Shown piece after piece: positions 1 to 64,000 of a DNA stretch of 64,000 bases. The DNA is from Pontibacter fetidus. GTDB taxonomy: Bacteria; Bacteroidota; Bacteroidia; Cytophagales; Hymenobacteraceae. The notes under the pieces are model-generated. The model saw nothing but the letters and a program-made list of their open reading frames with translations. It was not told the DNA's origin and did not search any database. Numbering within the stretch: the first letter of the stretch is position 1; every line of letters starts with the position of its first letter. Made by a program: the position numbers and the translations under genes. The stretch covers positions 62,001 through 126,000 of the forward strand of contig NZ_JAAEAA010000010.1 of assembly GCF_010119545.1 (NCBI RefSeq), in the 5' to 3' direction.

Positions 1-36
1 ACAAAAGCACGGTAGCCTGAGTTACCGTGCTTTTGT
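1..36. terminator. Bidirectional intrinsic terminator
   Basis: A perfect 14-bp stem (positions 1-14 with 23-36) has A-rich and T-rich arms, so it can work on both strands. It lies just downstream of the minus-strand PAP2 gene and probably also ends a plus-strand gene left of the window. Confidence 0.75.
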
Positions 37-58
37 ATTTTATAGTTTACAGCTATAG

Positions 59-880
59 TTAGAACGTATAGCTAAGGTTTGCGCCTTGTGCTGCTAAGCC
101 ATTAAAAGTAGGTAACACAGCCGGTGAAAGTGCAACGCCGCTATAGTTGTTCTTCTTATGCAACTGCGGAACAAGTATACCAGATAATGCACCAACTGTA
201 TAGCCGATCAGGTTATCACTCAGGAAGTGCTTTCCAGCTTTTAGGCGCAGGTAACCGACTGTAGCAGGTACAGCCGCAGCGGCTGCCCACACATAAGGTC
301 TGGCTGGTGAGTCCGGGTTGAAATCATGGAATACCTTGGCAGCAAAGAACGTAGCTGAAGCGGTAGCTGCTGTGTGTCCTGCAAAAAACGAGTTTTGTGC
401 GTTTGCTTCTGTTCTGTCGCTTATGTCTACTTCATCACTATACACCATAGGGCGTGCACGAGTGGTATTTCCGTTTGCCAGTGTAAATAGTGTACCGGTC
501 ACGGCCATCGTTTCTACATACAATACCAGTACCTGGCCGGCTTTGCTTCTTACATTTTGGTTCAGCATCATGGCCAGTGGCATTGCAAACGAACCGTAAA
601 ACGGGTAATCGCTTGCCTTTTTTGCTTTATCAGAGTGGTAGCCTGCGCTAAACCTGTCAAACGCATTTACATCTGATTTATCCATAGTGCTAACCTCAAA
701 CGGTGTAAAGCCATCTTTATCCTGTATCAGCGATAAACCATAAGCACTTAGCCCCATACCGGCAAGTATAACCGGGCCATCTACTGCAAGTTTGGTTTTA
801 TAAGGCGAGTCATTATCCTGCGCCGATACGGGGCCGGTAATGATTGTGAATATTATCAATAATGATAGAATCGGTTTCAT
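59..880 (-). CDS. PAP2-superfamily phosphatase, exported
   Basis: This 273-aa protein has an N-terminal signal peptide ending near SAQ at residue 21. The three PAP2 signature blocks are visible: an ARP block near residue 142, FFAGHTA (the PSGH block with Ala for Ser) near residue 166, and R-x5-H-x3-D in LRLKAGKHFLSD. The family removes phosphate from lipid phosphates such as phosphatidic acid or undecaprenyl pyrophosphate using a histidine nucleophile. Hydrophobic segments alternate with the motifs, as expected for a membrane-associated member. It is transcribed alone, convergent with whatever lies to the left. The substrate cannot be told from sequence. Confidence 0.85.
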   Translation of the reverse strand: MKPILSLLIIFTIITGPVSAQDNDSPYKTKLAVDGPVILAGMGLSAYGLSLIQDKDGFTPFEVSTMDKSDVNAFDRFSAGYHSDKAKKASDYPFYGSFAMPLAMMLNQNVRSKAGQVLVLYVETMAVTGTLFTLANGNTTRARPMVYSDEVDISDRTEANAQNSFFAGHTAATASATFFAAKVFHDFNPDSPARPYVWAAAAAVPATVGYLRLKAGKHFLSDNLIGYTVGALSGILVPQLHKKNNYSGVALSPAVLPTFNGLAAQGANLSYTF

Positions 881-1087
881 ACGTGTATTCTTAGTTTTCT
901 GTCTTCAATGAATGCTTTTGAAACGCGGGCTTAGGTAAAAAGTTTTGTACTATACTTGGATTGCGATATAGCACTATAGGTGAATGCTAACTTTTTATAA
1001 ATTTATATATCTATATAGTGCTGCTTCCCGTATCAGAACCGGACTGCGCCCGTAGCCTTTTTGCAGAGCCAAGGTATAAATCCTGAT

Positions 1088-1120
1088 TTTTTTAAGTATG
1101 CCGGAATTGTCTTAGCTTTG
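1088..1120 (+). promoter_or_regulatory. Likely Bacteroidota promoter of metK
   Basis: TAGCTTTG at 1113-1120 fits the -7 element TAnnTTTG. A T-rich tract about 20 bp upstream is a weak -33 element. It leaves a leader of about 45-50 nt before the metK ATG. I saw no SAM riboswitch fold in this leader. Confidence 0.5.
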
Positions 1121-1174
1121 TAGCCACAGGCCCATAAGAGCCATAGTTTTCAATTGTCATATAAAATTTAAGCA

Positions 1175-2479
1175 ATGCCATATTTATTCACTTCTGAGTC
1201 AGTGTCAGAAGGACACCCTGATAAAGTAGCGGATCAGATATCCGACGCCCTTCTTGATGAATTCTTAAAGCAGGACCCGCAGTCTAAAGTTGCCTGCGAA
1301 ACCCTTGTTACAACCGGCCTTGTGGTACTGAGCGGCGAGGTTAAGTCTGAAGCCTATGTGGATGTACAGAAAGTAGCCCGCGACGTGATCAAGCGTATCG
1401 GTTATACCAAGTCTGAATACATGTTTGATGCCGATGCCTGCGGTGTGATCTCAGCTATACATGAGCAGTCTGCGGATATAAACCAGGGTGTAGAGCGTGC
1501 TAACCCGGAAGATCAGGGAGCAGGTGACCAGGGTATGATGTTTGGGTATGCTACCAACGAAACCGACAACTACATGCCATTGGCGCTAAGCATTTCGCAC
1601 CTGTTACTGGAAGAGCTTGCAGCCATCCGTAAAGAAGGTAAAGAAATGACATACCTGCGCCCGGATGCAAAATCGCAGGTTACGATTCGTTACAGCGACA
1701 ACCACGTGCCAGAGAAAATTGACACGATCGTTATCTCTACACAGCACGACGAGTTTATACTTCCGGAAAGCAACACCCCTGAAGCCAAGGACAAAGCGGA
1801 GCAGGAAATGGTAGCCAAGATCAGTGAAGATGTAGCAGCTATACTTATCCCGCGTGTGCTGAAGCAGCTGCCGGAACGTATCCAGAACCTGTTTAACAAA
1901 GACATTACTTATCACATTAACCCAACGGGAAAATTCGTGATCGGTGGTCCGCATGGCGATACTGGTTTGACTGGCCGTAAAATTATAGTTGATACCTACG
2001 GTGGTAAAGGTGCACACGGTGGTGGCGCTTTTTCTGGTAAGGACTCTTCTAAAGTAGACCGTTCGGCAGCGTATGCAGCCCGCCACATTGCTAAAAACCT
2101 GGTAGCTGCCGGTGTAGCAGATCAGGCACTGGTGCAGGTAGCGTATGCTATTGGTGTTGCCAAACCGGTTGGTTTATATGTTACAACCTATGGCTCTACG
2201 AAAGTAAAGGATGCGAACGGTAACATTATGAGCGATGGCGAGATTGCAGAGAAAGTGAACAAACTGTTTGATATGCGTCCTTATGCTATCGTACAGCGCT
2301 TTGGTTTACAGAACCCGATCTTCTCTGAAACAGCAGCTTACGGCCACATGGGCCGCACGCCAGGCAAAAAGAAAGTAGAGTTCTCGGTTAACGGCCACAA
2401 AGAAAGCAAAGAGTTTGAGACCTTTACCTGGGAGAAACTTGATTATGTGGACAAGATCAAACAAGAGTTCGGTCTATAG
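1175..2479 (+). CDS. metK: S-adenosylmethionine synthetase
   Basis: MetK makes S-adenosylmethionine from methionine and ATP, releasing phosphate and pyrophosphate. The 434-aa product starts with the typical [19 protein letters not shown] block and carries [12 protein letters not shown] (the ATP-binding GxGDQG block) and [13 protein letters not shown] followed by GGGAFSGKD (P-loop-like and active-site region). It is somewhat longer than the E. coli enzyme. ATG at 1175 is the first start after a good -7 element. The stop lies inside a CTATAG repeat, so the last codons read CTA-TAG. A strong terminator follows at 2497. The SAM-cycle partner ahcY lies about 30 kb away in this window. Confidence 0.98.
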
Positions 2480-2496
2480 TCTGAACTATAGTTATA

Positions 2497-2537
2497 AAAC
2501 AGAAAGGCCCGCTAACTATAGCGGGCCTTTCTGTTTT
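2497..2537. terminator. Strong intrinsic terminator between metK and hpf
   Basis: A perfect 17-bp stem (2497-2513 with 2521-2537) has A and T tails on both sides, so it serves convergent metK and the hpf operon. The loop is TAACTATA, a copy of the dispersed AACTATAG repeat. Confidence 0.9.
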
Positions 2538-2608
2538 ATAGTTTGTCTCACTTCAGGAGACATTCATAATTCGTTGTTTCTAATTCATCATTGAAATGCT
2601 CAGCTTTC

Positions 2609-2908
2609 CTAGTAAGCAGTTTGCTTGTCTTTGTACTTTTTAAGTTGGCGGCGCATGGCTTCTACGGCTGCGTCAGCGGCTGCCTCAAAAGATGCAGCGT
2701 TTTCCTCTGAGTAAAGTGTAGCTCCCGGTACGTATAGTTTTATCTCTACGGTCTTGGTATTAATGCCGTCGCTGTTGTTATGTTTTATAAACACTTCACC
2801 TTCCACAATGCGGTCGTAAAATGTCTCCAGTTTATCTACTTTCTGCTGAATAAAATCGGACAGCTGTTGGTCAGCCTCGAAGTGGATGGAATGCATCTGT
2901 AACTTCAT
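2609..2908 (-). CDS. hpf: Short ribosome hibernation-promoting factor (HPF/RaiA family)
   Basis: The 99-aa product has the sigma-54 modulation/S30EA fold pattern: a beta strand MKLQMHSIHFEAD, a helix with SDFIQQKVDKLETFYDRI, strands around VEIKLYVPGATLYSEE, and a C-terminal amphipathic helix with AADAAVEAMRRQLKKYKDK. The short form binds the decoding region of the small subunit and helps store ribosomes as 100S or inactive 70S particles. It is the last gene of rpsU-xerC-hpf and starts 24 bp after xerC ends, so it is probably cotranscribed. The link with a ribosomal protein gene is common in Bacteroidota. Confidence 0.93.
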   Translation of the reverse strand: MKLQMHSIHFEADQQLSDFIQQKVDKLETFYDRIVEGEVFIKHNNSDGINTKTVEIKLYVPGATLYSEENAASFEAAADAAVEAMRRQLKKYKDKQTAY

Positions 2909-2932
2909 AGTCGTAAAATTTATTGGTTTAAC

Positions 2933-3811
2933 TTATGCTTTCGGATGAGCTTTCTCGAAGATCGATTTAAGCTTCTCTATTGAGTTATGGGTGTATACTT
3001 GTGTAGCTGCCAGGCTGGCGTGGCCCAGCAGATCCTTAATAGCATTCAGGTCAGCGCCTTTGTTAAGCAGGTGCGTAGCAAAGGAATGGCGCAGCACGTG
3101 CGGGCTGTTATGTTCTGAAGTTGTTATCAAGCTAATGTATTTTTTGACCACGCGGTATATAAACTTTGGATACAGTGGGCGTGCTTTAGTTGTAACGAGC
3201 AGCTTTTCAGAATTGTTATCGCCAAACTCCCTTTTCTTGTGCGCCAGGTAGGTGTTTATACTTTGCCATAAAGAGTCGTTGATAGGGATAATGCGCTCTT
3301 TATTGCCTTTGCCCAGCACGCGTACCGTTTTCTGGTACCGGTCTATATCCTGTTCGCTGATACCGATGAGTTCAGCAAGTCGCATACCGGTACCATACAG
3401 AAACTCAAGTATAACGCGGTCGCGCTGGCCTTCAAAACTGTCTTCAAACTCAAAGCCATCGAGCAAATTATTAAAAGGTTCTTCTGGCACAAAACCCGGC
3501 AACTTTTTAGTTACTTTGGGCGCTTTAATGCGCAGCATCGGGTTAGCCTTTATTCTTTCCTGTGATAAAAGGAATTTATAGTAGGAGCGTAAGCAGGCAA
3601 TTTTACGGTTGATAGACCGTGGCTGTATGTTTTGTTGTACCAGTGAAAGGATCCAGGAACGGATAATGGTATGGTCGGCCTCAGCCGGATCGGTGATCTC
3701 GTAAATCTGGAGTAAGTAATCAGAGAACTGCCCCAGATCGGTGTGGTAGGAGGTAAGGGTGTGCGGGCTGTACCGCTTTTCGTACTGTAGGTACTTAAAA
3801 AATAGATCCAT
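2933..3811 (-). CDS. xerC: Tyrosine recombinase XerC/XerD type
   Basis: The 292-aa protein has an N-terminal SAM-like core-binding domain (about residues 1-90) and a C-terminal catalytic domain. The catalytic residues are present: Arg in GTGMRLAEL, Lys in VLGKGNKERIIP, HxxR in HVLRHSFATHLL, His in LLGHASLA and the nucleophile in TQVYTH. Xer recombinases resolve chromosome dimers at dif. The location between rpsU and hpf is the usual one in Bacteroidota. Xer-like enzymes also act in mobile elements, but nothing mobile is nearby. XerC versus XerD cannot be settled without phylogeny. Confidence 0.9.
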   Translation of the reverse strand: MDLFFKYLQYEKRYSPHTLTSYHTDLGQFSDYLLQIYEITDPAEADHTIIRSWILSLVQQNIQPRSINRKIACLRSYYKFLLSQERIKANPMLRIKAPKVTKKLPGFVPEEPFNNLLDGFEFEDSFEGQRDRVILEFLYGTGMRLAELIGISEQDIDRYQKTVRVLGKGNKERIIPINDSLWQSINTYLAHKKREFGDNNSEKLLVTTKARPLYPKFIYRVVKKYISLITTSEHNSPHVLRHSFATHLLNKGADLNAIKDLLGHASLAATQVYTHNSIEKLKSIFEKAHPKA

Positions 3812-3817
3812 AAACTA

Positions 3818-3845
3818 GTATAGCCGCTTGGTTAAGCAGCTATAC
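3818..3845 (-). other. RNA hairpin just before xerC start
   Basis: On the minus strand GTATAGC and GCTATAC arms (3818-3824, 3839-3845) extend to a 10-bp stem with one mismatch and end 6 nt before the xerC ATG. There is no U-tract, so it is not a classic terminator. It could limit xerC translation or mark mRNA processing after rpsU. Confidence 0.45.
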
Positions 3846-3880
3846 CAATTTATGGAAAAATATATTAATTCGGAAATGAA

Positions 3881-4075
3881 TTAGTAGTTATCCTTAGCGA
3901 AAAGCGTTTGCTTATACTTAGCTCTTTCCTTCTGCTTTCTTTTAGAAACAGATGGTTTTTCGAAGAATGTTCTGGCTCTCAGCTCTTTCAACACACCAGT
4001 TCTTTCGAACTTCTTCTTAAATCTCTTTAATGCACGGTCTACAGACTCGTTATCTTTTACGTTTACAATAATCAT
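3881..4075 (-). CDS. rpsU: 30S ribosomal protein S21
   Basis: The 64-aa product matches bS21: MIIVNVKDNESVDRALKRFKKK at the start, then the basic helices with FFEKPSVSKRKQKERAKYKQ. S21 sits on the 30S platform near the anti-Shine-Dalgarno end of 16S rRNA. In Bacteroidota it helps hide the anti-SD, which fits the weak SD sites in this window. It is the first gene of rpsU-xerC-hpf, with a promoter about 35 nt upstream. Confidence 0.97.
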   Translation of the reverse strand: MIIVNVKDNESVDRALKRFKKKFERTGVLKELRARTFFEKPSVSKRKQKERAKYKQTLFAKDNY

Positions 4076-4108
4076 GTTTTTGTTTCGCTTCTCTTGGAAT
4101 TAGGGTTG

Positions 4109-4140
4109 CAAATTTAATAAACCTTATAGTTAAAAATCAA
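4109..4140 (-). promoter_or_regulatory. Likely promoter of rpsU operon
   Basis: On the minus strand TAAATTTG (4109-4116 as its complement) matches TAnnTTTG, with a TTG 21 bp upstream as a partial -33 element. It lies about 35 nt before the rpsU ATG. Confidence 0.5.
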
Positions 4141-4224
4141 CTATTTAAGCGATTTTTATCTGTTAATATCTAAAATATTCTGAATCAATGGTTTCAGGCT
4201 GCAAATATAGCAAAATTTAGCTAC

Positions 4225-5364
4225 CTATTTCAGTACAGCTCTGGAAATTACCAGTTTCTGTATTTCGCTGGTGCCTTCGCCTATTGTGCAAAGCTTAGCA
4301 TCGCGGTAATACTTCTCGGCAGGGTAGTCTTTGGTAAAGCCATAGCCGCCAAAAATCTGCACGCCTTCATTAGCCACACGCACCGATACTTCAGACGCGT
4401 ATAGTTTCGCCATCGCCGATTCTTTGTTCACGTTCAGTCCGCGGTTTTTCATGTCGGCTGCCTGATAGGTAAGCAGAGCTGCTGCTTCAATTTCGGTAGC
4501 CATATCTGCCAGCTTAAAGGCAATACCCTGGAACGATGAAATTGGCTTGTTGAACTGGCTACGCTCTTTGGAATACTGAAGAGCTGCTTCAAAAGCACCC
4601 TGCGCAATACCCAGTGATAGGGCAGCAATAGAAATACGACCACCATCAAGCACTTTCATAGCTTGTATAAAGCCTTCGCCTACGTTGCCTAATATCTGGC
4701 TTTTGTGTACGCGGCAATCCTGGAAGATGAGCTCTGTGGTTTCAGAGGCACGCATGCCCAGTTTGTCTTCTTTGCGTCCAGCGCTAAAGCCCGGTGTGCC
4801 TTTCTCAATCACAAAAGCCGTCATGCCATGCGAGTCGCCTACTTCGCCGGTACGAACTATAACCACCGCTACATTACCGATTTTACCATGCGTAATAAAG
4901 TTTTTAGCACCATTTATCACATAGTAATCACCATCTTCTACGGCTACTGTACGCATGTTGCCTGCATCCGAACCTGTGTTTGGCTCGGTTAAGCCCCATG
5001 CACCGATCCATTCGGCAGTTGCCAGTTTAGGCAGGTATTTCTGCTTCTGCTCTTCGTTGCCGAACGCCAGTATATGACCAGTGCAAAGTGAGTTGTGTGC
5101 CGCCATCGAAAGACCGATAGAACCATCTATCTTAGAAAGCTCAGTTATAGCAGTAACATACTCCAGGTAACCAAAGCCTGAACCACCATACTCTGTTGGC
5201 ACTAAAACGCCCATTAGCCCTAGTTCGCCCAACTTCTTGAAAACTTCCACCGGAAATTCCTGGCTTTCGTCCCACTGCATCATGTTAGGTTTAATGTGCT
5301 TGGCACCAAAGTCACGAACCATGTCCGCTATCATGCGCTGGTTCTCTGTATATTTTAATTCCAT
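4225..5364 (-). CDS. Acyl-CoA dehydrogenase
   Basis: This 379-aa flavoprotein has the normal length of short/medium-chain acyl-CoA dehydrogenases. The family blocks are present: GAWGLTEPNTGSDAGNM (FAD/substrate loop), the YSKERSQFNKPISSFQ region and the C-terminal CTIGEGTSEIQKLVISR, whose Glu aligns with the catalytic base of the short-chain group. The enzyme makes the trans-2 double bond in acyl-CoA during fatty acid or branched-chain amino acid breakdown and passes electrons to ETF. It is transcribed alone, divergent from the PHP gene. Chain-length specificity is not visible. Confidence 0.95.
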   Translation of the reverse strand: MELKYTENQRMIADMVRDFGAKHIKPNMMQWDESQEFPVEVFKKLGELGLMGVLVPTEYGGSGFGYLEYVTAITELSKIDGSIGLSMAAHNSLCTGHILAFGNEEQKQKYLPKLATAEWIGAWGLTEPNTGSDAGNMRTVAVEDGDYYVINGAKNFITHGKIGNVAVVIVRTGEVGDSHGMTAFVIEKGTPGFSAGRKEDKLGMRASETTELIFQDCRVHKSQILGNVGEGFIQAMKVLDGGRISIAALSLGIAQGAFEAALQYSKERSQFNKPISSFQGIAFKLADMATEIEAAALLTYQAADMKNRGLNVNKESAMAKLYASEVSVRVANEGVQIFGGYGFTKDYPAEKYYRDAKLCTIGEGTSEIQKLVISRAVLK

Positions 5365-5521
5365 TTATAGTTTGATTGTAGGGTTTTGAGTCGCGTATAT
5401 AACGGTTTAAAGATCCGCATGTTCACAAAACTATATATTTAAAGGCAAAACGACAATCCGGCTACCTGAAATGGAGTATAATATATTAGGCAAAGTATAG
5501 CGTTTTAGGTAGGGCGTTCAT

Positions 5522-5552
5522 TTTGAAAGCGTATTTTAATTGCGTTATTTTG
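5522..5552 (+). promoter_or_regulatory. Possible promoter of PHP phosphatase gene
   Basis: TTTG (5522-5525), 19 bp, then TTATTTTG (5545-5552). The spacing is ideal but the second base of the -7 element deviates from TAnnTTTG. Confidence 0.35.
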
Positions 5553-5620
5553 AAGATGCTAAGAACCCAGTTATCTGAACTTTGGGATGGCAATAAAGGT
5601 AATTAGCTAAATAGCAGTAA

Positions 5621-6367
5621 ATGAAGCAGTTTTTCAAAAACTTATTTGGGGGAGATACCGCTACGCTGGAATCATTGGGTGCCATTGGGGTAGATATGCA
5701 CTCGCATATTTTGCCTGGCCTGGATGATGGAGCGGAAACACTGGAGCATTCGCTGGAGCTGGTGCGGGCCATGCAGCAGTTGGGCTACCGAAAACTGATC
5801 ATGACGCCCCACGTGATGAGCGACTTTTACCGCAACACACCCGAAGGTATACGCGAACGCCTGCACTACCTGAAAGATGCCATTGCCGAAGCCGGTATAG
5901 AAATGGAGCTGGGTTGCGCTGCCGAATATTACCTGGATGAAGTGTTTCTGCAGAAGCTAGAGAATAACGAGGAACTGTTAACTTTCGGAGATAAACACCT
6001 GCTTTTCGAGACCTCCTTCCTGAACGAGCCGCTTAACCTGCGCGAAGCCATTTTTATGATGCGCTCTAAAGGCTATAAACCGGTAATGGCACACCCAGAA
6101 CGCTACACCTATTTTTATGGCAAGTTTAACGACCTGGTAGAACTACGTGAGCAAGGCGTATTGCTACAACCAAACCTAAACTCGCTTACAGGATACTATT
6201 CGCCGGCGGCAAAAAACGTAGCCGAAAAGTTAATAGACAATGGCCTGGTTGACCTGGTAGGTTCTGATGTGCATAGTTTAAAACACATCGCCGCCCTTAA
6301 CAGGGTACTAAGTACCAAGTATATCAATAAATTGCTGTCGTTGCCCTTGCTTAACCCGCAACTATAG
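5621..6367 (+). CDS. CpsB/CapC-like PHP-domain tyrosine phosphatase
   Basis: The 248-aa protein has the PHP metal site at its start (DMHSHILPGLDDGAET, then MTPHVM) and later metal ligands in MAHPERY and GSDVHS. Members of the CpsB/CapC/YwqE family remove phosphate from the tyrosine kinases that control capsule and exopolysaccharide export. No kinase or export genes are adjacent here, so the partner must lie elsewhere. The final codons CTA-TAG fall inside an AACTATAGTT repeat copy at 6359-6370. A sugar-type SDR epimerase follows after about 28 bp and may be cotranscribed. Confidence 0.85.
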   Translation: MKQFFKNLFGGDTATLESLGAIGVDMHSHILPGLDDGAETLEHSLELVRAMQQLGYRKLIMTPHVMSDFYRNTPEGIRERLHYLKDAIAEAGIEMELGCAAEYYLDEVFLQKLENNEELLTFGDKHLLFETSFLNEPLNLREAIFMMRSKGYKPVMAHPERYTYFYGKFNDLVELREQGVLLQPNLNSLTGYYSPAAKNVAEKLIDNGLVDLVGSDVHSLKHIAALNRVLSTKYINKLLSLPLLNPQL

Positions 6368-6395
6368 TTCCTGTCTCCGTTAGCTATACTTCAGA

Positions 6396-7370
6396 ATGAT
6401 ATTTGTAACAGGCGGTAGTGGCCTTATCGGCAGTTTCCTGATACCTGCGCTTCTAGGACAAGGGCATAGCGTGCGTGCGCTTTACCGCGGGCAGGTACCA
6501 GCTATACCTATGGCCGAACGTGTAGAGTGGGTAGAAGGAGATATACAGGATCCCGTACTTTTGAGGCAGGCGTTGCAGGATGTACACTACGTTTTCCATA
6601 GTGCCGGTTTGGTGTCTTACGACCCGCAGGACAAAGAATTACTGAAGCAGATAAATATAGAAGGCACTGCCAATATAGTAGATGCCTGCCTGGAGGCCGG
6701 AAGTATAAAACTGTGCCATGTAAGTTCCATAGCTGCCATTGGCCGCCCCGCTGATGCTGATGTGCTGACTGAAAACAGCAAATGGAACCCGGCAGAAGAA
6801 CACTCGGCCTATGCCAGCTCAAAACACCTCGGCGAACTGGAAGTATGGCGTGGTATTTCGGAGGGTTTGGATGCAGTTATAGTTAACCCGTCTGTAGTGC
6901 TTGGCCCTGCCGACTGGAACCGTAGCAGCACACGTCTCTTTAAATATGTATATAACAAGAACACCTTTTATACAGGCGGTAAAGCTAATTTTGTAGATGT
7001 TCGCGATGTAGTGGATGCTATGTTGCAGCTCACGTTCTCGGAAATATCCGGCGAAAGATTTATATTGAATGCGGGGCAGCTGGCTTATAAAGATTTTTTT
7101 GAACAGGTGGCAGGCTGTATGCATCGTAAAGCGCCCTCGCGCAGAGTAAACCCGGTGCTGGCAGAACTTGTATGGCGCGCCGAACGGCTCCGCTCATGGC
7201 TTACAGGTGCGCGTCCGCTTATCACAAAAGATACGGCCAGAGTGTCCGCAAAAAATCATTTTTTCAGCAATGCAAAGGTGCAGAAGGCCATCGGGTTGGA
7301 GTTCAGGGCGTTACCTGAAACTATAGCCTGGACCTGCTCCGAATTACTGCAACAGCAGGCTGTAAAGTAG
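6396..7370 (+). CDS. NAD-dependent epimerase/dehydratase (extended SDR)
   Basis: The 324-aa protein starts with a Rossmann motif, FVTGGSGLIGSFL (TGxxGxxG), and has the catalytic Y-x3-K in AYASSKHLGE plus a Ser-rich strand HVSSIAAIG before it. This is the extended SDR layout seen in sugar-nucleotide epimerases, dihydroflavonol-reductase-like and 3-beta-HSD-like enzymes. Its position downstream of a CpsB-like phosphatase hints at glycan work, but the substrate-binding half is not diagnostic. The substrate is unknown. Confidence 0.85.
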   Translation: MIFVTGGSGLIGSFLIPALLGQGHSVRALYRGQVPAIPMAERVEWVEGDIQDPVLLRQALQDVHYVFHSAGLVSYDPQDKELLKQINIEGTANIVDACLEAGSIKLCHVSSIAAIGRPADADVLTENSKWNPAEEHSAYASSKHLGELEVWRGISEGLDAVIVNPSVVLGPADWNRSSTRLFKYVYNKNTFYTGGKANFVDVRDVVDAMLQLTFSEISGERFILNAGQLAYKDFFEQVAGCMHRKAPSRRVNPVLAELVWRAERLRSWLTGARPLITKDTARVSAKNHFFSNAKVQKAIGLEFRALPETIAWTCSELLQQQAVK

Positions 7371-7434
7371 CTTTTTAGCGCAGCCAACTATAAACTATTT
7401 GCCTGTATAAAATGTAATGTAACAAAGGCTGCAA

Positions 7435-8856: not shown

Positions 8857-8862
8857 TATCAG

Positions 8863-9645
8863 ATGAACTATACGCTGAATAACCTGCCGGAGCGCGAGCT
8901 TAAGCCACGCGAGCGGGGTTTTACCATGGCTATGGACAAAGGCCTGAGTGTACGGGAAGTGGAAGACTTTCTGGATGTAGCCGGAGAATATGTTGACATT
9001 GTGAAGCTGGGCTGGGCTACCTCGTATGTGGTGCCTAACCTGCAAAAAAAGCTGGATGCTTACAGAGCTGCCGGTATACCGGTATACTTTGGAGGTACCT
9101 TATTCGAGGCTTTTATTGCCCGTAACCAGTTCGAGGACTACCGCCGTATCCTGGACAAGTATCAAATGACTTTTGCAGAAGTATCGGATGGTTCGCTGGA
9201 GATGAACCATGAAGAGAAACTGCAGTATATTCAGACATTGGCCGAGCAGGTAACCGTGTTATCAGAAGTAGGTTCTAAAGATGCGGAGAAGATCATTCCG
9301 CCTTATAAGTGGATACAGCTGATGCAATCGGAACTGGATGCCGGTGCCTGGAAAGTGATTGGTGAAGCACGCGAAGGTGGTAACGTTGGTTTGTTCCGTT
9401 CAACGGGCGAGGTACGTAGCGGTCTGGTTGAAGAGATCCTGACGAAGATCCCGTTTGAGAAGATATTGTGGGAAGCGCCGCAGAAAGCACAGCAGGTATG
9501 GTTTATAAAACTACTGGGTGCTAACGTAAACCTTGGTAACATTGCGCCAAGCGAAGTGATACCTTTAGAAACTATCCGATTAGGTCTGCGTGGCGATACC
9601 TTCCACCACTTCCTTAACATGGATGATGCCGGCCTGAAAAGTTAA
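8863..9645 (+). CDS. Phosphosulfolactate synthase (ComA) family protein
   Basis: The 260-aa TIM-barrel protein matches the ComA family in blocks such as VDIVKLGWATSYVVP, PVYFGGTLFEAF, EVSDGSLEM and VFxLEAR-like VIGEAREGGNVGLF. ComA adds sulfite to phosphoenolpyruvate to make phosphosulfolactate, in coenzyme M synthesis in methanogens and in sulfolactate production in some bacteria. Bacteroidota make sulfonolipids (capnine types) from cysteate, so a role in making a C3 sulfonate is an attractive guess. The context (TPR gene 6 bp upstream, aroE downstream) gives no direct support. Family assignment is firm, substrate is inferred. Confidence 0.8.
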   Translation: MNYTLNNLPERELKPRERGFTMAMDKGLSVREVEDFLDVAGEYVDIVKLGWATSYVVPNLQKKLDAYRAAGIPVYFGGTLFEAFIARNQFEDYRRILDKYQMTFAEVSDGSLEMNHEEKLQYIQTLAEQVTVLSEVGSKDAEKIIPPYKWIQLMQSELDAGAWKVIGEAREGGNVGLFRSTGEVRSGLVEEILTKIPFEKILWEAPQKAQQVWFIKLLGANVNLGNIAPSEVIPLETIRLGLRGDTFHHFLNMDDAGLKS

Positions 9646-49942: not shown

Positions 49943-49946
49943 GAAA

Positions 49947-54928: not shown

Positions 54929-55028
54929 TAAAGTACAGGCGCTCTGGAGAAATCCGGAGCGCTTAACTTACTTTATAAAAACGCATAGCTGTAAAGCAAA
55001 TAAGTTGTATCGATATTATTAGAATAAT

Positions 55029-58000
55029 ATGGCATTTGCAAAAACCAAAAAGCTAACTCAGGACTTCTCAAAAGTAACGATAAGCTTGGCTTCTCCAGAG
55101 TCAATTCTGGAGCGTTCCAACGGAGAGGTAGTTAAGCCTGAGACCATAAATTATAGAACCTATAAGCCTGAAATGGGTGGTTTATTCTGCGAAAGAATAT
55201 TCGGACCTGTAAAGGACTGGGAATGCCACTGCGGAAAGTATAAAAGAATCAGATACAAAGGTATCATCTGCGACCGTTGCGGTGTAGAGGTAACTGAAAA
55301 GAAAGTGCGTCGTGAGCGTATGGGCCATATTGAGCTTGTTGTTCCTGTAGCACATATCTGGTACTTCAAATCTCTTCCAAACAAAATTGGTTATCTGTTA
55401 GGCTTACCAACTAAGAAGCTTGACCAGATCATCTATTACGAAAGATATGTAGTTATCCAGCCGGGTATTCTGGCAGAAGACGGTGTAAATACACTGGACT
55501 TCCTGACAGAAGATGAATACCTGGATATGGTTGACAAGCTACCACGTGAGAACCAGATGTTGGATAACAATGATCCAAATAAGTTCATCGCGAAAATGGG
55601 TGCTGAAGCATTACAGATGTTACTGGAGCGCACGAACCTTGATGACCTGTCATACGAGCTTCGTCATGCCGCCGCTCACGAAACTTCGCAGCAGCGTAAA
55701 GCTGAGGCGTTGAAGCGTCTTCGTGTAGTAGAAGCATTCCGTGATGCTGCAACAAGAATTGAGAACAGACCTGAATGGATGATCATCCGCATGGTGCCTG
55801 TTATCCCGCCAGAACTTCGTCCGCTTGTTCCGTTAGATGGTGGCCGTTTTGCTACGTCTGACTTGAACGACCTTTACCGTCGTGTTATCATCCGTAACAA
55901 CCGTCTGAAGCGTCTGATCGAGATCAAAGCTCCTGAAGTAATTCTTCGTAACGAGAAGCGTATGCTGCAAGAAGCGGTAGACTCCCTGTTCGACAACTCA
56001 CGTAAAGTGAACGCTGTTCGTGCTGAAGGTAACCGTGCGCTGAAATCACTATCAGATATGCTGAAAGGTAAGCAGGGACGTTTCCGTCAGAACTTACTTG
56101 GTAAGCGTGTTGACTACTCTGGCCGTTCGGTAATTGTGGTTGGGCCTGAACTGAAGCTTCATGAGTGCGGTCTGCCTAAGAACATGGCAGCTGAGCTTTT
56201 CAAGCCGTTCATCATCCGCAAGCTGATCGAAAGAGGTATAGTTAAGACTGTAAAGTCAGCTAAGAAAATTGTAGACCGTAAGGACCCTGTAGTTTGGGAT
56301 ATCCTGGAGAATGTGCTGAAAGGCCATCCGGTACTCCTTAACCGTGCTCCTACACTACACAGACTTGGTATACAAGCATTCCAGCCAAAACTGATCGAAG
56401 GTAAGGCAATCCAGTTACACCCACTTGTGTGTACGGCATTCAACGCCGACTTTGACGGTGACCAGATGGCGGTGCACGTTCCACTTGGACCTGCTGCAAT
56501 CTTGGAAGCCTCTATGCTGATGCTTGCTTCGCACAACATCCTTAACCCTGCTAACGGTGCTCCAATTGCAGTACCTTCTCAGGACATGGTTCTAGGTTTA
56601 TACTATGTAACCAAAGGAAAGCGTAGCACAGAGAACGAAACTATCAAAGGAGAAGGTATGAGCTTCTATTCTCCTGAAGAAGTTATTATTGCTATCAACG
56701 AAGGTCGCCTTTCAAAGCATGCACACATTAGAGTGCGTGTTAACGTGAAAAACGAGAAAGGGGAAATTGAGAATAAATTAACAGAAACAGTAGCTGGTCG
56801 TGTATTATTCAACCAATTCGTTCCTGCAGAAGTTGGATACATTGATGAATTACTGACGAAGAAAAAACTTCAGCAGGTAATTTCCCGCGTGTTCAAAGAG
56901 ACAGGTATGGCTCGTACCGCTCACTTCCTGGATGATATCAAAACACTAGGCTTCCAGTCTGCTTACAAAGGCGGTCTGTCAATGGGCCTTGGTGATATCA
57001 ATATCCCGGCAGAGAAAGAAGTATTGGTTGAGCAGGCTAAGAAAGATGTAGATGCTGTATGGCAAAACTACTCGATGGGTCTGATCACAGATAACGAGCG
57101 TTACAACCAGGTTATCGATATCTGGACACGTATCAACAACCAAATTACTGAAACGTTAATGCGTCGTCTGGAAAATGAAGATCAGGGCTTTAACTCTATC
57201 TTCATGATGATGCACTCAGGAGCCCGTGGTTCAAGAGAGCAGATCCGTCAGCTGGGTGGTATGCGTGGTCTGATGGCGAAGCCTCAGAAATCATTACAGG
57301 GTTCAGTAGGTGAAATTATAGAAAACCCGATCCTTTCTAACTTTAAGGAAGGTCTGGATGTAATCGAGTACTTCATCTCTACACACGGTGCTCGTAAAGG
57401 TCTTGCCGATACGGCTCTTAAAACGGCGGATGCTGGTTACCTGACTCGTCGTCTGGTAGACGTGTCGCAGGACGTGATTGTGAACGAGGAAGACTGCGGT
57501 ACATTGCGTGGTCTGGAAGTTAGTGCACTTAAGGATAACGAAGATATAGTTGAGTCTCTGTCTGAGCGTATCCTTGGTCGTGTAACTGTACACGATGTTT
57601 ATGATCCAATTACGAATGAACTTATAGTTGAGTCTGGTTCAGAGATCACAGAAGAAGTAGCACGTGATATTGAAAACACAGCTATTGAGTTTGTAGAGAT
57701 CCGTTCGGTACTTACTTGTGAGTCTAAGCGTGGTATCTGTGCTAAATGCTACGGCCGTAACCTGGCAACAGGCTTTATGGTGCAGAAAGGTGAAGCAGTA
57801 GGTGTAATTGCAGCTCAGTCAATTGGTGAGCCAGGTACACAGCTGACACTACGTACATTCCACGTGGGTGGTACGGCATCTAACATTGCGGTAGAAGCAA
57901 CTATAAAAGCTAAATTCTCTGGTAAGATCGAGTATGAAGACGTGCGTACAATCGACACGATCAACAACGAAGGTGAACCAGTGAAAGTAGTTATGGGACG

Positions 58001-59345
58001 TTCCGGTGAAGTGAAAATAGTCGACCCAAATACTGGCAAACTATATATCTCTAACCACGTGCCTTATGGTTCATTCCTGACTGTAACAGATGGTCAAACT
58101 ATAGAAAAAGGGGATAATATCTGTAGCTGGGATCCATATAACGCAGTTATACTTTCAGAGTTTGATGGTACAGTTGCATATGAGTCGATCATTGAAGGTA
58201 TCACTTACCGTGAGGAGTCAGATGAGCAGACAGGTTACCGTGAAAAAGTTATTATCGATACAAAAGATAAGACACAGAACCCGGCTATACTTGTAAATCC
58301 TAAGAATGGTGAATCAAAAGGATATAACATTCCGGTTGGTGCACATATCGTGGTGGAAGATGGCGAGAAAATCAAAGCGGGACATATCCTGGTGAAGATA
58401 CCTCGTGCAATTGGTAAAACACGTGACATTACGGGTGGTCTGCCACGAGTTACCGAATTATTCGAAGCGCGTAACCCTTCTAACCCGGCCGTTGTGTCTG
58501 AAATTGATGGTGTTGTAACATATGGTAGCGTGAAGCGTGGTAACCGTGAAATCTTCATTGAGTCGAAAGATGGCGTGAAGAAGAAATACATGGTTCCACT
58601 TTCGAAGCACATCCTCGTTCAGGACAATGACTTCGTTCGTGCAGGTATGCCATTATCAGATGGTGCTATAACGCCTACAGATATTCTGAATATCCAAGGA
58701 CCGGGTGCAGTACAGGAGTACCTGGTAAATGAGATACAGGAAGTATATCGTCTGCAGGGTGTGAAGATCAATGACAAGCACATTGAAGTCGTGGTTCGCC
58801 AGATGATGCAGAAAGTAGTGATACTTGATCCGGGTGATACTAGCTTCCTGGAACATCAGGTGGTGGATAAGATTATGTTCATGGAAGAGAACGACCGCAT
58901 CATCGATATGAAAGTTGTTGAAGAAGCAGGTGATTCAGCTACGATGAAGCCAGGCCAGATAGTTACAGCACGTCGTTTACGTGATGAAAACTCAAGTCTG
59001 AAGCGTCGTGACCTGAGACTGGTAACGGTTAGAGATGCGTCACCGGCAGTATCTCGCCCAACCTTGCAAGGTATAACGCAGGCATCATTAGGTACGCAAA
59101 GCTTTATCTCAGCAGCATCGTTCCAGGAAACTACAAAAGTACTGAGCGAAGCAGCTATTAAGGGTAAAGCAGATGAGCTGTTAGGTCTGAAAGAGAACGT
59201 AATTGTTGGTCACCTGATCCCGGCTGGTACTGGATTGAAAGAGTATCAGAAACTGATCGTGGGTAGCCAGGAAGAGTACGATTCGTTGACAGAGTCTAAA
59301 AGAACATCAGCTAAAACTAAACAGCAGGCACTGCAAAATAAATAA
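55029..59345 (+). CDS. rpoC: RNA polymerase beta' subunit
   Basis: The 1438-aa protein has the N-terminal zinc site ([20 protein letters not shown]), the Mg-binding [15 protein letters not shown], the bridge-helix/trigger-loop area and the second zinc region with [13 protein letters not shown]. Full length. Several rare ATA codons occur in TATAGTT or TATACTT strings (57545, 57623, 58143). It is followed 8 bp later by the DUF3467 gene. Confidence 0.99.
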
Positions 59346-59353
59346 GGTATAAC

Positions 59354-59671
59354 ATGGCAGAAGAACAGCAAAACCAGAATCAAATAAACATTGAGTTAAC
59401 GGAAGAGGTAGCAGAAGGGCAGTATGCCAACTTAGCTATGATTGCTCATTCCAGCAGCGAATTTGTTATTGATTTTATTCGTCTGATGCCAGGTTTGCCT
59501 AAAGCAAAAGTAAAATCAAGAGTTGTTATCACACCAGAGCATGCTAAGAGATTATTAGCAGCTCTGGCTGATAACATCAAAAAATACGAAAGTAGCTTTG
59601 GTGATATCAAGCAGGCAAATGAAACACCGTCTTTCCCGATGAACTTCGGAGGAACAGTTGGTGAAGCATAA
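59354..59671 (+). CDS. DUF3467 family protein
   Basis: The 105-aa acidic protein contains the conserved region ANLAMIAHSSSEFVIDFIRLMPGLPKAKVKSRVVITPEHAKRLL. It starts 8 bp after rpoC, a link conserved in Bacteroidota. The family has no set function; a role around transcription is only suggested by position. It is followed by the rpsL promoter, so it ends the rpoBC unit. Confidence 0.88.
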   Translation: MAEEQQNQNQINIELTEEVAEGQYANLAMIAHSSSEFVIDFIRLMPGLPKAKVKSRVVITPEHAKRLLAALADNIKKYESSFGDIKQANETPSFPMNFGGTVGEA

Positions 59672-59697
59672 GATGCTAATAATTAAATAATTAAAAT

Positions 59698-59729
59698 TTT
59701 GAAATTGCAAAGTGATTTTTATACCTTTG
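59698..59729 (+). promoter_or_regulatory. Promoter of the str operon (rpsL)
   Basis: TTTG (59698-59701), 20 bp, TACCTTTG (59722-59729): an almost perfect Bacteroidota promoter, 46 bp before the rpsL ATG. Confidence 0.8.
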
Positions 59730-59775
59730 CAGTCCAAAAATTAAAGTGGAAAAATCTATAATTAACAGATTGTAA

Positions 59776-60189
59776 ATGCCTACTATACAGCAATTAGTAA
59801 GAAAAGGCAGAGAGAAACTGACTTCAAAGTCAAAGTCTCCAGCCTTGGATTCATGCCCGCAGCGTCGTGGAGTATGTACAAGAGTATATACTACAACGCC
59901 AAAGAAACCAAACTCTGCAATGCGTAAAGTTGCAAGGGTAAGATTAACAAATGGTAAAGAGGTGAACGCCTACATACCAGGTGAAGGACATAACCTACAG
60001 GAACACTCAATTGTTCTGATCAGAGGTGGTAGAGTAAAAGACCTTCCAGGTGTTCGTTACCACATCGTACGTGGTGCACTGGATACAGCAGGTGTAAACG
60101 GCCGTCTTCAGTCACGTTCTAAGTACGGTGCTAAGAGACCTAAACCAGGACAAGCGCCAGCAGCTGCCGGAAAAGGTAAAAAGAAATAA
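59776..60189 (+). CDS. rpsL: 30S ribosomal protein S12
   Basis: The 137-aa protein sits at the decoding centre. Family blocks: [29 protein letters not shown] and [16 protein letters not shown], where the Lys residues tied to streptomycin sensitivity (TTPKKP and RVKDLP) are the normal ones. The C-terminal tail is Ala/Gly/Lys-rich. It is the first gene of rpsL-rpsG-fusA-rpsJ. Confidence 0.99.
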
Positions 60190-60207
60190 TAAATAGCATT
60201 TAATACA

Positions 60208-60675
60208 ATGAGAAAAGCAAAGCCGAAGAGTAGAATTCTCCTTCCAGATCCAAAATATAAAGAAACATTAGTAACACGTTTTGTAAACTACCTAATGGTA
60301 GATGGCAAGAAAAGTGTTGCTTATGGTATCTTCTATGATGCTGTAGATCTAGTAGAGCAAAGAACAAAAGAAAACGGTCTTGAAACTTGGAAGAAGGCAT
60401 TGAATAACATCATGCCTAGTGTAGAAGTTAAAAGCCGTCGTGTAGGAGGAGCTACTTTCCAAGTGCCGACTGAGGTTCGTCCGGACCGCAGAGTATCTCT
60501 GGGAATCAAATGGATGATTTCCTACTCACGCAAGAGAGGTGAGAAGACAATGAAAGATAAATTAGCAGGTGAAATTATTGCAGCTGCTAAGGGTGAAGGT
60601 GCTGCCGTTAAGAAAAAAGACGATACGCACAGAATGGCAGAAGCGAACAAAGCATTCTCACACTTTAGATTCTAG
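60208..60675 (+). CDS. rpsG: 30S ribosomal protein S7
   Basis: The 155-aa protein starts assembly of the 30S head. Blocks: [38 protein letters not shown], and [20 protein letters not shown]. Normal length. It is 18 bp after rpsL and 2 bp before fusA, so fusA is likely translated by coupling. Confidence 0.99.
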
Positions 60676-60677
60676 TA

Positions 60678-62780
60678 ATGGCAAGAGACTTAAAATATAC
60701 CAGAAATATTGGTATTGCTGCGCACATCGATGCTGGTAAAACCACTACAACTGAGCGTATTCTTTATTATACAGGTAAATCTCACAAGTTAGGTGAAGTA
60801 CACGAAGGTGGAGCTACAACTGACTGGATGGAACAGGAGCAGGAGCGTGGTATTACAATCACATCTGCGGCTGTAACTGTAAACTGGCCATATAGAGGCA
60901 ACGATTACCATATCAACATCATTGATACGCCAGGTCACGTAGACTTTACTGTAGAAGTGAACCGCTCACTTCGTGTTCTTGATGGTCTTGTGTTCCTTTT
61001 CAGTGCTGTTGATGGCGTAGAGCCTCAGTCAGAAACGAACTGGAGACTTGCTGACAACTATAAAGTTGCTCGTCTTGGTTTCGTTAACAAAATGGACCGT
61101 TCGGGTGCTGACTTCCTTGCTGTTTGTAAGCAGGTGAAAGAAATGCTTGGCAGCAATGCTGTAGCTTTACAGTTACCTATTGGTTCAGAAGATAACTTTA
61201 AAGGAGTTGTTGACTTAGTAAACTTCCGTGGTATCGTTTGGAATGAATCAGATAAAGGTATGACCTTCACTGAGGTTCCTATTCCGGATGATATGTTGGA
61301 GGAAGCTGAAGAGTACAGAGAGAAACTTCTTGAAGCAGTAGCTGAGTACGACGAATCTTTGATGGAGAAATACTTCGAAGATCCTAACTCAATTACAGAA
61401 GCTGAAATCTTAGCTGCACTTCGTGCTGCAACTATAGATATGGCAATTGTTCCGATGCTTTGTGGTTCTTCTTTCAAGAACAAAGGTGTTCAGACAATGC
61501 TTGACTATGTAATGGCCCTTTTACCATCGCCGATGGACAAAGAAAGCATCATAGGTACAAACCCTGATACGGATGCTGAAGTAGCAAGAAAACCATCAGC
61601 AAGCGATCCATTTGCTGGTTTAGCATTTAAAATTGCTACTGACCCTTATGTAGGTCGTCTTTGCTTTGTTCGTGCATACTCAGGTGTTCTTGAGTCAGGT
61701 TCTTATGTGTTCAATACGCGTTCAAATAACAAGGAGCGTATCTCGCGTATTTTCCAGATGCATGCCAACAAGCAAAACCAGATCGAAAGATTGGAAGCTG
61801 GTGATATTGCAGCGGTAGTAGGTTTCAAGGATATCAAAACTGGTGACACGCTTTGCGATCAGAACCATAAGATCGTTCTTGAATCTATGGAGTTCCCAGA
61901 GCCGGTTATCGGATATGCAATTGAGCCTAAAACTCAGGCTGACTCTGATAAAATGGGTATGGCAATCGCTAAGCTTGTGGAAGAAGATCCAACGCTACAG
62001 GTAAATACTGATGAGGAAACTGGTCAGACTATCCTGAGAGGTATGGGTGAACTACACCTGGAGATCATCATTGACCGTATGAAGCGTGAGTTCAAAGTTG
62101 AATTGAACCAGGGTGCTCCACAGGTTGCTTACAAAGAAACTATCACTAAGAAGGTTGAGCACCGCGAAGTGTTCAAGAAGCAGTCAGGTGGTCGTGGTAA
62201 GTTTGCCGACATCGTATTTGAGATGGGGCCACGTGAAGATGGTAAGCAGGGTCTTGAATTCGAAAACGCTATTGTAGGTGGTGTTATCCCAAGAGAATTC
62301 ATTCCAGCTGTACAGAAAGGTTTCGAAGAAGCGATGAAGAACGGTATTCTTGCCGGTTTCCCTATCGATTCAATGAAAGTACGTCTGTTCCATGGTTCAT
62401 TCCACGATGTTGACTCTGACTCATTATCATTTGAATTAGCAGCGCGTCAAGGTTTCAAAGAAGCAGGTAAGCAGTGTGCTCCTAAACTTCTAGAGCCGAT
62501 CATGGCGGTTGATGTTGTTACTCCAGATGAGTACACAGGTCCTGTAACAGGTGACCTGAACAGAAGAAGAGGTATCATGAAAGGTATGGATACAAAAGGT
62601 ACATCAACTGTAGTAAAAGCAGATGTTCCGTTATCAGAACTTTTCGGTTATGTTACTGACCTTCGTACAATAACATCAGGTAGAGCTACAGCTTCTTTAA
62701 CTTTCTCACATTATGAGCAAGTACCACAGAACTTAGCAGATGGCATCATTGCCAAAATTAAAGGAACATCAGCTAAATAG
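60678..62780 (+). CDS. fusA: Elongation factor G
   Basis: EF-G drives translocation and, with Frr, ribosome recycling. The 700-aa protein has GTPase motifs [35 protein letters not shown] and NKMDRSG, followed by domains II-V with [12 protein letters not shown] and [19 protein letters not shown]. Normal length. Its start is 2 bp after rpsG. rpsJ follows after 11 bp. Confidence 0.99.
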
Positions 62781-62791
62781 TTGTTACAAAA

Positions 62792-63097
62792 ATGAATCAG
62801 AAAATAAGAATTAAATTAAAGTCTTACGATCACAATTTAGTTGATAAGTCATCTGAGAAGATCGTTAAAGCAGTAAAAGCAACAGGAGCTATAGTTAGTG
62901 GTCCGATTCCACTTCCAACTGAGAAAGATAAATTTACTGTGTTGAGATCACCACACGTAAATAAAAAGTCTCGTGAGCAGTTCCAGTTATGTACTTACAA
63001 GAGATTAGTAGATATTTATTCAACTAGCTCTAAAACAGTAGATGCACTAATGAAGCTAGAGTTACCAAGCGGTGTTGATGTAGAGATCAAAGTTTGA
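62792..63097 (+). CDS. rpsJ: 30S ribosomal protein S10
   Basis: The 101-aa protein binds the 30S head and also NusB in antitermination. Blocks: [50 protein letters not shown] and GVDVEIKV. Normal length. A strong terminator directly follows, so S10 is cut off from the rest of the S10 operon. Confidence 0.99.
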
Positions 63098-63114
63098 TAA
63101 ACTCACAATCCAAT

Positions 63115-63152
63115 AAAAAAAGAGAACCATAGCAATATGGTTCTCTTTTTTT
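63115..63152 (+). terminator. Strong terminator between rpsJ and rplC
   Basis: A 17-bp perfect stem (63115-63131 with 63136-63152) of A-run, GAGAACCATA and its complement, followed by T's. With the promoter at 63183 it splits the S10 operon after rpsJ. Confidence 0.9.
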
Positions 63153-63182
63153 ATGACCTGATTAAGAATATTTTACAGAAGA

Positions 63183-63215
63183 GTTGTTAAGAAATATTTA
63201 TTTTTCTTAACTTTG
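63183..63215 (+). promoter_or_regulatory. Promoter of rplC and the rest of the S10 operon
   Basis: GTTG (63183-63186), 21 bp, TAACTTTG (63208-63215). It lies about 60 bp before the rplC ATG and after the terminator that follows rpsJ. Confidence 0.65.
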
Positions 63216-63276
63216 CACTCCCTTAGCTAAAGCTATGGGGTGATAATATTGTATCCATCTATAAAAAACAAGTTGA

Positions 63277-63894
63277 ATGCCTGGAATTATCGGTAAAAAA
63301 ATCGGAATGACAAGCCTCTTCACACCAGATGGTAAAAACATACCAGTAACGCTTATTCAAGCAGGACCGTGTGTTGTTACTCAGGTGAAGACGGTAGAGA
63401 ACGATGGCTATGCTGCAGTACAGCTTGGCTTCGGTGACAAGAAGCTGAAAAGAGTAACAAAAGCAGAAGCTGGTCATTACAAGAAAACTAATACGGCTCC
63501 TAAGAAAAAGGTTGCAGAATTTGATGCAGAAGGTGTGTCATTAAATGCAGGAGATGTGGTTGACGCCAGCCTTTTCATTGAAGGTGAGTTTGTTGATGTG
63601 GTAGGAACATCAAAAGGTAAAGGCTTTCAGGGTGTTGTAAAACGCCATGGCTTTGCTGGTGTTGGTGGTCAGACGCACGGTCAGCACAACAGGGCAAGAC
63701 ACCCAGGTTCAATTGGTGCATGTTCTTGGCCATCAAGAGTATTCAAGGGAATGCGAATGGCAGGTAGAACAGGCGGTAACAGAGTTACTATCCAAAACCT
63801 GACAATCATGCGAGTTATCGCTGATAAAAATCTTTTAGTAGTTAGCGGCTCTGTACCAGGTGCCAAAAACTCTTACGTTTTAATCGAGAAATAA
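63277..63894 (+). CDS. rplC: 50S ribosomal protein L3
   Basis: The 205-aa protein is an early assembly protein of the 50S subunit. It starts [20 protein letters not shown] and contains [17 protein letters not shown] and the [16 protein letters not shown] loop near the peptidyl transferase centre. Normal length. rplD starts 1 bp after its stop. Confidence 0.99.
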
Positions 63895-63895
63895 A

Positions 63896-64000
63896 ATGGA
63901 GCTTTCTGTATTGAATATTAAAGGTGAAGATACAGGTAGAAAGATCGCTCTTTCTGATGCTGTATTTGGCGCTGAGCCAAATGAGCATGCAATGTATCTT
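63896..64000 (+). CDS. rplD: 50S ribosomal protein L4, partial (5' end)
   Basis: The first 35 codons read [21 protein letters not shown] and onward, ending at the window edge. This is the N-terminal strand-helix start of L4. The gene continues beyond the window. It starts 1 bp after rplC. Confidence 0.9.

Follow-up and report, generated by a model that had tools for sequence, protein, structure and literature searches.

A short, asymmetric DNA word with lineage-specific dialects in Pontibacter resembles a mark of self-recognition

A 64-kb stretch of the Pontibacter fetidus genome (contig NZ_JAAEAA010000010.1, GC content 0.45; hereafter the window) is rich in a short asymmetric word, AACTATA followed by any base but T. 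This word belongs to a family that can be written as AAC, AAG, AGG, NGG or probably NTA, then TATA, then a base other than T, and that is present in thousands of copies per genome in most Pontibacter. The 5´ triplet varies between lineages to yield distinct dialects, and the 3´ half is nearly constant, with the genome coded G028 as the exception. The word is held by something that acts on its sequence, rather than by one type of mutation. Moreover, its sites tend to be retained at the same place in related species, are often rewritten in place where a relative has another dialect, and are scarce in foreign-looking DNA. The word therefore looks like a self-recognition mark.

The original prediction made for this DNA described the repeat as a palindrome with the core CTATAG. 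This core is indeed repeated, with 87 copies in the window compared to 15.9 on average and 25 at most among 100 dinucleotide-preserving shuffles, and the local counts that accompanied the prediction (12 copies between 11.8 and 15.0 kb, 4 between 46.6 and 64 kb) are exact. AA before and/or TT after flanks 62 of the 87 copies (39 + 36 - 13), and the full palindrome AACTATAGTT occurs 13 times. However, the signal is sharpest for AACTATA/TATAGTT, an asymmetric 7-mer. Its edges are sharp, the consensus upstream is slight, and the base that follows it (n = 1383) is G in a fraction of 0.53, A in 0.31, C in 0.13 and T in 0.03. The same position is also poor in T after AAGTATA (14 of 398) and AGGTATA (12 of 209). 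The palindrome as such proves to be a minority form. In the AAC dialect, the 10-bp palindrome holds just 19% of AACTATA matches, both in P. fetidus itself (G000) and in a second genome (G031), and the palindromic share is 3% for AAGTATACTT (13 AAG loci) and 0% for AGGTATACCT (10 AGG loci). Given these low shares, the palindrome is most readily explained as an overlap of two copies of the asymmetric word in inverted orientation.

On both strands together, the window holds 155 copies of AACTATA, compared to 11.4 (maximum 24) in the shuffles. The Markov expectation for this number rises with the order of the model, from 11.2 (order 1) and 11.9 (order 2) through 30.5 (order 3) and 84 (order 4) to 136 (order 5). 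For CTATAG, the comparison with such models yields a mixed outcome: the 87 copies exceed an order-3 expectation of 30.5 (61.1 when counted on both strands), whereas an order-4 model expects 66.9 and accounts for a large part of the excess, since the longer word itself raises the counts of CTATA and TATAG. A similar effect on AACTATA is to be expected, as a high-order model already includes most of the enriched word. The string TATACTT/AAGTATA, which had also been called abundant, occurs 73 times against expectations of 11 (order 1) and 18 (order 2). In a 464-kb sample of the genome, comprising the window and 20 further stretches (L005-L024), the counts are 1384 for AACTATA (82 expected at order 1), 736 for AACTATAG (19 expected), 132 for AACTATAGTT (0.7 expected) and 585 for AAGTATA (82 expected). 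The enrichment extends to the whole genome (4.07 Mb in 49 contigs), where AACTATAGTT has 1087 copies and the same letters reversed have 5.

The word is specific to certain lineages. We counted AACTATAGTT in 99 relatives and dialect words in 50 Pontibacter genomes including G000, and fetched 80 related loci, mostly 22.5 kb long, from named genomes by using the M1-family peptidase gene of the window as an anchor. The nearest named relative is P. populi, with 89% DNA identity over an aligned 18 kb. Among 49 relatives within the genus, AACTATAGTT occurs 1124-1477 times in 4, 104-330 times in 3 and 0-28 times in 42; outside it, the range is 0-18 in 11 genomes from other genera of the family and 38 from other families of the order. 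When 7-mers are ranked locus by locus without a preset word, the top word in most other Pontibacter loci differs from AACTATA. AAGTATA or its one-base shift tops 13 loci, AGGTATA/CTATACC leads in 10 loci, those of the P. roseus clade, and 6 loci have AACTATA, either by itself or together with AAGTATA (that of the window, L025, L026, L027, L035 and, weakly, L071). No such word stands atop the ranking for the pooled named loci without a dialect.

Across the 50 genomes, AAGTATAA (both strands) has 2125-7030 copies in 23 and at most 1201 in the others, and AGGTATAG has at least 2823 copies in 12 and at most 833 in the others. Three genomes once placed in a class without a dialect were removed from it after other words were found in them. 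One of these, G043 (GC 0.55; 200 kb sampled), carries 283 copies of ATATATA against expectations of 7.3 (order 1) and 70 (order 2) and 188 copies of CTATATA against 8.5 and 31, and its dialect is probably TA-TATA. The others, sampled over 40 kb each, use (G/C/A)GGTATA (G037) and AGGTAGA, which alters the 3´ half (G028). A dialect is thus detected in 42 of the 50 genomes: 23 AAG, 12 AGG, 4 pure AAC and these three. The remaining eight (G002, G007, G024, G025, G026, G034, G042 and G046; 40 kb each) have none or a weak one, and two of them are not blank, with 17 AACTATA against 3.5 expected in G046 and 19 AGGTATA against 2.8 in G002. These eight genomes measure 4.9-6.5 Mb, compared to 4.1-4.5 Mb for five AAC genomes and an intermediate, overlapping 3.8-5.5 Mb for AAG genomes; dialect loss may accompany genome growth. 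Separately, G020 (contig C1:1944098-1946633) carries at least 39 copies of AGGTATAG at a steady spacing of 64-69 bp, an arrangement suggestive of a CRISPR array or of a tandem repeat that includes the word.

Dialects mostly follow clades, with the AAG-dominant genome G033 as the exception. Trees were built from the M1-family peptidase (39 of 81 loci including the window, with L027 left out owing to a broken frame) and from AddAB (48 of the 50 genomes, G002 and G026 being left out). Beyond Pontibacter, Hymenobacter loci carry other lineage-specific words (CCTACCCC, CCCTAGG, ACCTAGG, GGGCCCC, GCCCCCCA and TAGGCCA), and many of them carry none. More than 1000 copies of CCTACCCC (both strands) are present in 14 of the 120 genomes of a genus coded g5, presumably Hymenobacter; the remaining 190 of the 204 family genomes have no more than 536.

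In the genomes compared, individual sites are kept where both lineages share a dialect, mostly lost where one of them lacks it, and often switched in place. In an 18-kb alignment that comprised 16 of the 81 loci, AACTATA of the window is identical in L025 at 21 of 26 sites, and AAGTATA of L028 is identical in L029 at 16 of 20. Of these 20 L028 sites, L034 keeps only 1 and L032 only 3; both loci represent species without a dialect. Pairwise comparisons over 60-138 kb of contiguous sequence, with composition-matched 7-mers as controls, yield the same pattern. Of 147 AAC sites of G000, 75 are identical in G031, an AAC genome (control 0.25, p = 2e-11), and of 75 AAG sites of G000, 47 are identical in G033 (control 0.25, p = 9e-12). 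AAG sites of G033, by comparison, are identical in G031 in 9 of 109 cases only (control 0.21).

Switching is evident at sites where the six other bases are equal (16 comparisons made). AAG sites of G033 read C in G031 in 14 of 27 cases (control 2.7%, p = 1.4e-15), and AAC sites of G031 read G in G033 in 14 of 67 (control 2.7%, p = 2.2e-9). Extra retention of the centre base is absent for AAC sites of G031 in G033 (49 of 67, control 0.78) and for AAG sites of G033 in G000 (47 of 52, control 0.84), and several small sets gave no significant result. Among 11 genomes counted, which are of the AAC, mixed or AAG type, the combined density of AAC and AAG words is 3.6-4.3 per kb in 8 (G000, G031, G033, G027, G045, G018, G038 and G044) and 2.3-2.7 per kb in the other 3 (G006, G008 and G040). 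Finally, one-step differences hit all seven positions of the word and comprise many substitution types, which makes a single mutational bias an unlikely cause.

The word is held mainly in resident chromosomal DNA. Although it is itself AT-rich, it is rarer in AT-rich bins: among 5-kb bins of G031, those with GC below 0.38 and of 0.38-0.41 hold 5.8 and 2.6 copies per bin (12 bins), compared to 16.2 copies per bin at GC 0.45-0.47 (47 bins). G000 has just 4 such AT-rich bins, with 3.0-5.0 copies. Similarly, the second contigs of three two-contig AAG genomes, which are likely to be plasmids or second replicons, carry 0.15-0.30 AAGTATA per kb (one 20-kb stretch each), whereas the chromosomes of these genomes carry 0.93-1.87 per kb (one 15-kb stretch each). 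We also observed that four 20-kb stretches of G031 (L132, L134, L135 and L137) contain few copies; three of them have a low GC content of 0.40-0.42 and are possibly recent islands. The density of the word could act as a detector for foreign DNA.

Placement along the chromosome is neither regular nor polarized. A simple gene caller assigned 322 genes to 74% of the 464-kb sample, so some genes were missed; with these calls, AACTATA has a density of 1.92 per kb within coding DNA and 5.75 per kb elsewhere, and the reversed string one of 0.20 in both. Among spacers of 20-800 bp, the density is 13.2 per kb in convergent, 7.4 in divergent and 6.8 in tandem arrangements. The mean distance between AACTATA copies is 327 bp, and no regular spacing was seen, the gaps being more variable than random (standard deviation/mean 1.32). 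For direct copies, 8 is the most frequent short spacing (22 cases). When strands are assigned by GC skew, there is no replication polarity of AACTATA in 20 stretches of the one-contig genome G031 (515:508), nor of AAGTATA in 10 stretches of G022 (75:70), a genome whose sample counts include runs of N.

Within the window, the original claim of a spread over the whole length holds in that the word is present throughout, but its distribution is uneven. The right-hand part encodes strongly constrained genes and is sparse, though still above chance, since the shuffle mean predicts about 3 AACTATA for these 17.5 kb. The features of the window are as follows, with a strand given where one applies.

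1..46530: dense part, with 138 AACTATA (both strands) and 83 CTATAG, by counts
46531..64000, + strand: sparse part, with 17 AACTATA and 4 CTATAG, by counts
46531..64000, + strand: genes of the sparse part, for EF-Tu, NusG, L1, L10, RpoB, RpoC, S7, EF-G and L3, by Pfam
2484..2493: full AACTATAGTT, formed by two inverted words that overlap, by sequence (as are the full copies below)
2514..2521, + strand: AACTATAG at the centre of a GC-rich inverted repeat directly 3´ of the S-adenosylmethionine (SAM) synthetase gene, by context, with Pfam for the synthetase
6360..6369: full AACTATAGTT
12233..12242: full AACTATAGTT
14957..14966: full AACTATAGTT, with a direct AACTATA copy at 14950
20272..20281: full AACTATAGTT
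21050..21059: full AACTATAGTT
21439..21448: full AACTATAGTT
22554..22571: direct copies 8 apart (22554 and 22562), of which the second is a full AACTATAGTT at 22562-22571
33467..33493: cluster of a full AACTATAGTT (33467-33476), AACTATAG (33480) and CTATAG (33488)
35907..35916: full AACTATAGTT
40864..40873: full AACTATAGTT
40960..40969: full AACTATAGTT
42012..42021: full AACTATAGTT
43435..46005, + strand: M1-family peptidase gene, the anchor for the 80 related loci, by Pfam

Terminator-like inverted repeats in the window carry copies of the word in their arms or loops (17284-17320 and 2506-2530), and one such repeat has two CTATAG 11 bp apart, one per arm, followed by T-rich sequence. Other strings also deviate from expectation. 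CTAG is strongly depleted in the window (53 versus 146 expected), and GTAC and ATAT are low too. In the 464-kb sample, CAGGTC/GACCTG is strongly enriched; 326 of its 389 coding matches share a single frame, so it probably reflects a codon-pair effect. The 10-mers AGGTCGCGAC (25 versus 0.3) and CGACCTGTCC (23 versus 0.3) look like a separate dispersed repeat.

Among the causes offered by the original prediction, namely DNA modification, a mutational or repair bias, and a binding protein, the third fits best, in the form of a sequence-specific binding or recognition protein. Our leading, though tentative, hypothesis is that the word is an uptake sequence of pilus-free natural transformation. An evolving core protein would read the word, DNA bearing it would gain an advantage through that reading, and the reader may be the DNA-uptake apparatus. 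A ComEC match in each of the 50 genomes is in line with this hypothesis, as are the conservation and in-place switching of sites, the peak density in convergent spacers and the scarcity of the word in AT-rich bins and second contigs. If uptake is biased and is followed by homologous recombination, copies of the word in recombining chromosomal DNA would become more numerous, be conserved and be rewritten, as in the dialects of Neisseriaceae. Among known systems, the pattern appears most like these uptake-sequence dialects, in which a core is needed for transformation, copies number in the thousands, and species dialects track phylogeny (PMC3630211). The Pontibacter word shares the copy number and the dialects with a constant core that follow the tree, apart from G033 and G028. 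Both are also over-represented, asymmetric and enriched in resident DNA. A precedent for pilus-free uptake exists in the same phylum: Riemerella (Bacteroidota), for which no pilus homologs are reported, transforms without type IV pili via an outer-membrane system whose specificity factor is not known, and two of its species favor their own DNA, likewise for a reason not known (PMC8459023, PMC7965970). The putative over-represented candidates given for Riemerella are a 9-bp repeat at 0.5-0.6 per kb versus 0.1 expected, and 10-mers rich in A, AAAAATAAAA among them; as described there, they show no dialect family like that of Pontibacter.

Several observations weigh against the word being an uptake sequence. 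It is denser (about 3 per kb) and shorter (7-8 bp) than known uptake sequences, which occur about once per kb and measure 9-12 bp. A search of the 50 genomes for the pilus/type II secretion ATPase (PF00437) found only P-loop matches of about 60 residues, in 3 of the 50 just above the cut-off; with no convincing ATPase of this kind, the reader is unlikely to be a receptor of the known pilus type. A ComEC match is also present in genomes in which no dialect was detected. In G022 (L274) and G009 (L275), comEC lies in two reading frames with a stop within the family match and is therefore broken or misassembled, and both genomes retain their dialect. The lesion bears no relation to dialect strength: G020, whose ComEC match is unbroken, has fewer AAGTATAA than G022. 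No shared outer-membrane gene was seen next to comEC in 7 neighbourhoods, which were inspected by listing open reading frames without family searches. Finally, G033 adjoins the AAC pair G031/G038 in the AddAB tree of 48 genomes, which breaks the simple tree pattern, and AAC was therefore gained twice or partly reversed. The presence of ComEC or AddB was rejected as a discriminator, since each has a match in all 50 genomes, whether or not they have a dialect.

After uptake, the next candidate, to which we give a lesser chance, is a nucleoid or chromosome-organising protein that binds the word every few hundred bases, such that the sites co-evolve with its DNA-recognition surface. The spread of the word over the sampled chromosome, its neutral orientation (515:508), the conservation and in-place switching of its sites, and its scarcity in AT-rich stretches and second contigs would all be expected of such sites. 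Against this stand the irregular spacing (1.32) and the peak density in convergent spacers, where resistance to a drive is least, and we know of no chromosome-organising protein with dialect switching. More doubtful is the proposal that AddAB, a helicase-nuclease, uses the word as its Chi site, which would protect self DNA and promote recombination. Chi words are likewise short asymmetric marks of self DNA, 5-8 bases long and different between species; the universal AddB-type gene and the scarcity in AT-rich stretches and second contigs also fit. However, known Chi sites are polarised and far less dense than this word, which shows no leading-strand polarity in G031 or G022. AddAB columns that separate the five AAC genomes from G033 number 12 in AddB and 30 in AddA, the latter being incomplete in several genomes and missing in G028. 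All 12 AddB columns lie after residue 400; none falls in the first 400 residues, within the N-terminal half that we take to read Chi, and a role of the C-terminal part of AddB is possible.

The original prediction also likened the repeat to cyanobacterial HIP1, and the likeness holds for a dispersed, very frequent word. HIP1 occurs in genes and spacers. HIP1 (GCGATCGC) is a high-frequency word replaced by alternate HIPs in some lineages (Elhai 2015, PMC4390886), a feature shared with the Pontibacter word. We consider it improbable, though, that the latter is a HIP1-type sequence linked to an orphan DNA methyltransferase. The Pontibacter word is asymmetric, with dialects that share a nearly constant 3´ half, and its AAG and AGG forms are non-palindromic. 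Moreover, no DNA-modification family among the four searched accompanies the word in the 50 genomes, Type IIG families (PF07669 and others) not having been searched: matches to N6_N4_Mtase (PF01555; 31 of 50), MethyltransfD12 (PF02086; 13 of 50) and C5 methylase (PF00145; 23 of 50) are patchy, and N6_Mtase (PF02384) matches occur in all 50 but are patchy where strong, the weak, short ones being judged generic by length and score though above the family cut-off. Genome G049 has an AAG dialect without matches to the first three families, and its PF02384 matches are weak (best E 7e-5, just above the cut-off, in frames of about 290-390 amino acids). As a side observation, contig C33 of G000 (25018-26551) contains short N6_N4_Mtase pieces, one with internal stops, which suggests a decayed methyltransferase gene. 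Least likely of all, and very doubtful, is the creation of the word by a mutational or repair bias. Such a bias needs no function and would enrich the word in genes and spacers alike, as is seen. Yet differences occur at all seven positions in many types, AT-rich DNA holds fewer copies, and retention depends on the dialect of the partner, with switches that run both from C to G and from G to C.

Because the word lacks, in the tests made here, a defining feature of HIP words, of uptake sequences and of Chi sites, we have filed it under none of these families. Our literature search returned no mention of AACTATAGTT, AACTATAG or CTATAGTT as whole words, and nothing on the word among the titles listed for Pontibacter. 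It is plausible, though short of probable, that Hymenobacteraceae possess, in these words, a new kind of self-identity mark spread over the genome, in which a nearly fixed half is combined with a fast-switching triplet and read by a protein. Shifts in the specificity of this reader would cause thousands of sites to be lost, gained or rewritten in place (AAG to AAC, AAG to AGG), with the bilingual genomes G000, G027 and G033 persisting as intermediates.

In our view, HIP1-like words have been hard to explain partly because change within a lineage is rarely caught in action. A single genus with several dialects, apparent losses and bilingual intermediates makes selection, drive and mutation directly testable as causes. 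If the word is not an uptake signal, it points to a protein that reads DNA at thousands of places in each genome. If it is, the word would give pilus-free natural transformation in Bacteroidota an element of specificity and would set a genetic barrier between closely related species.

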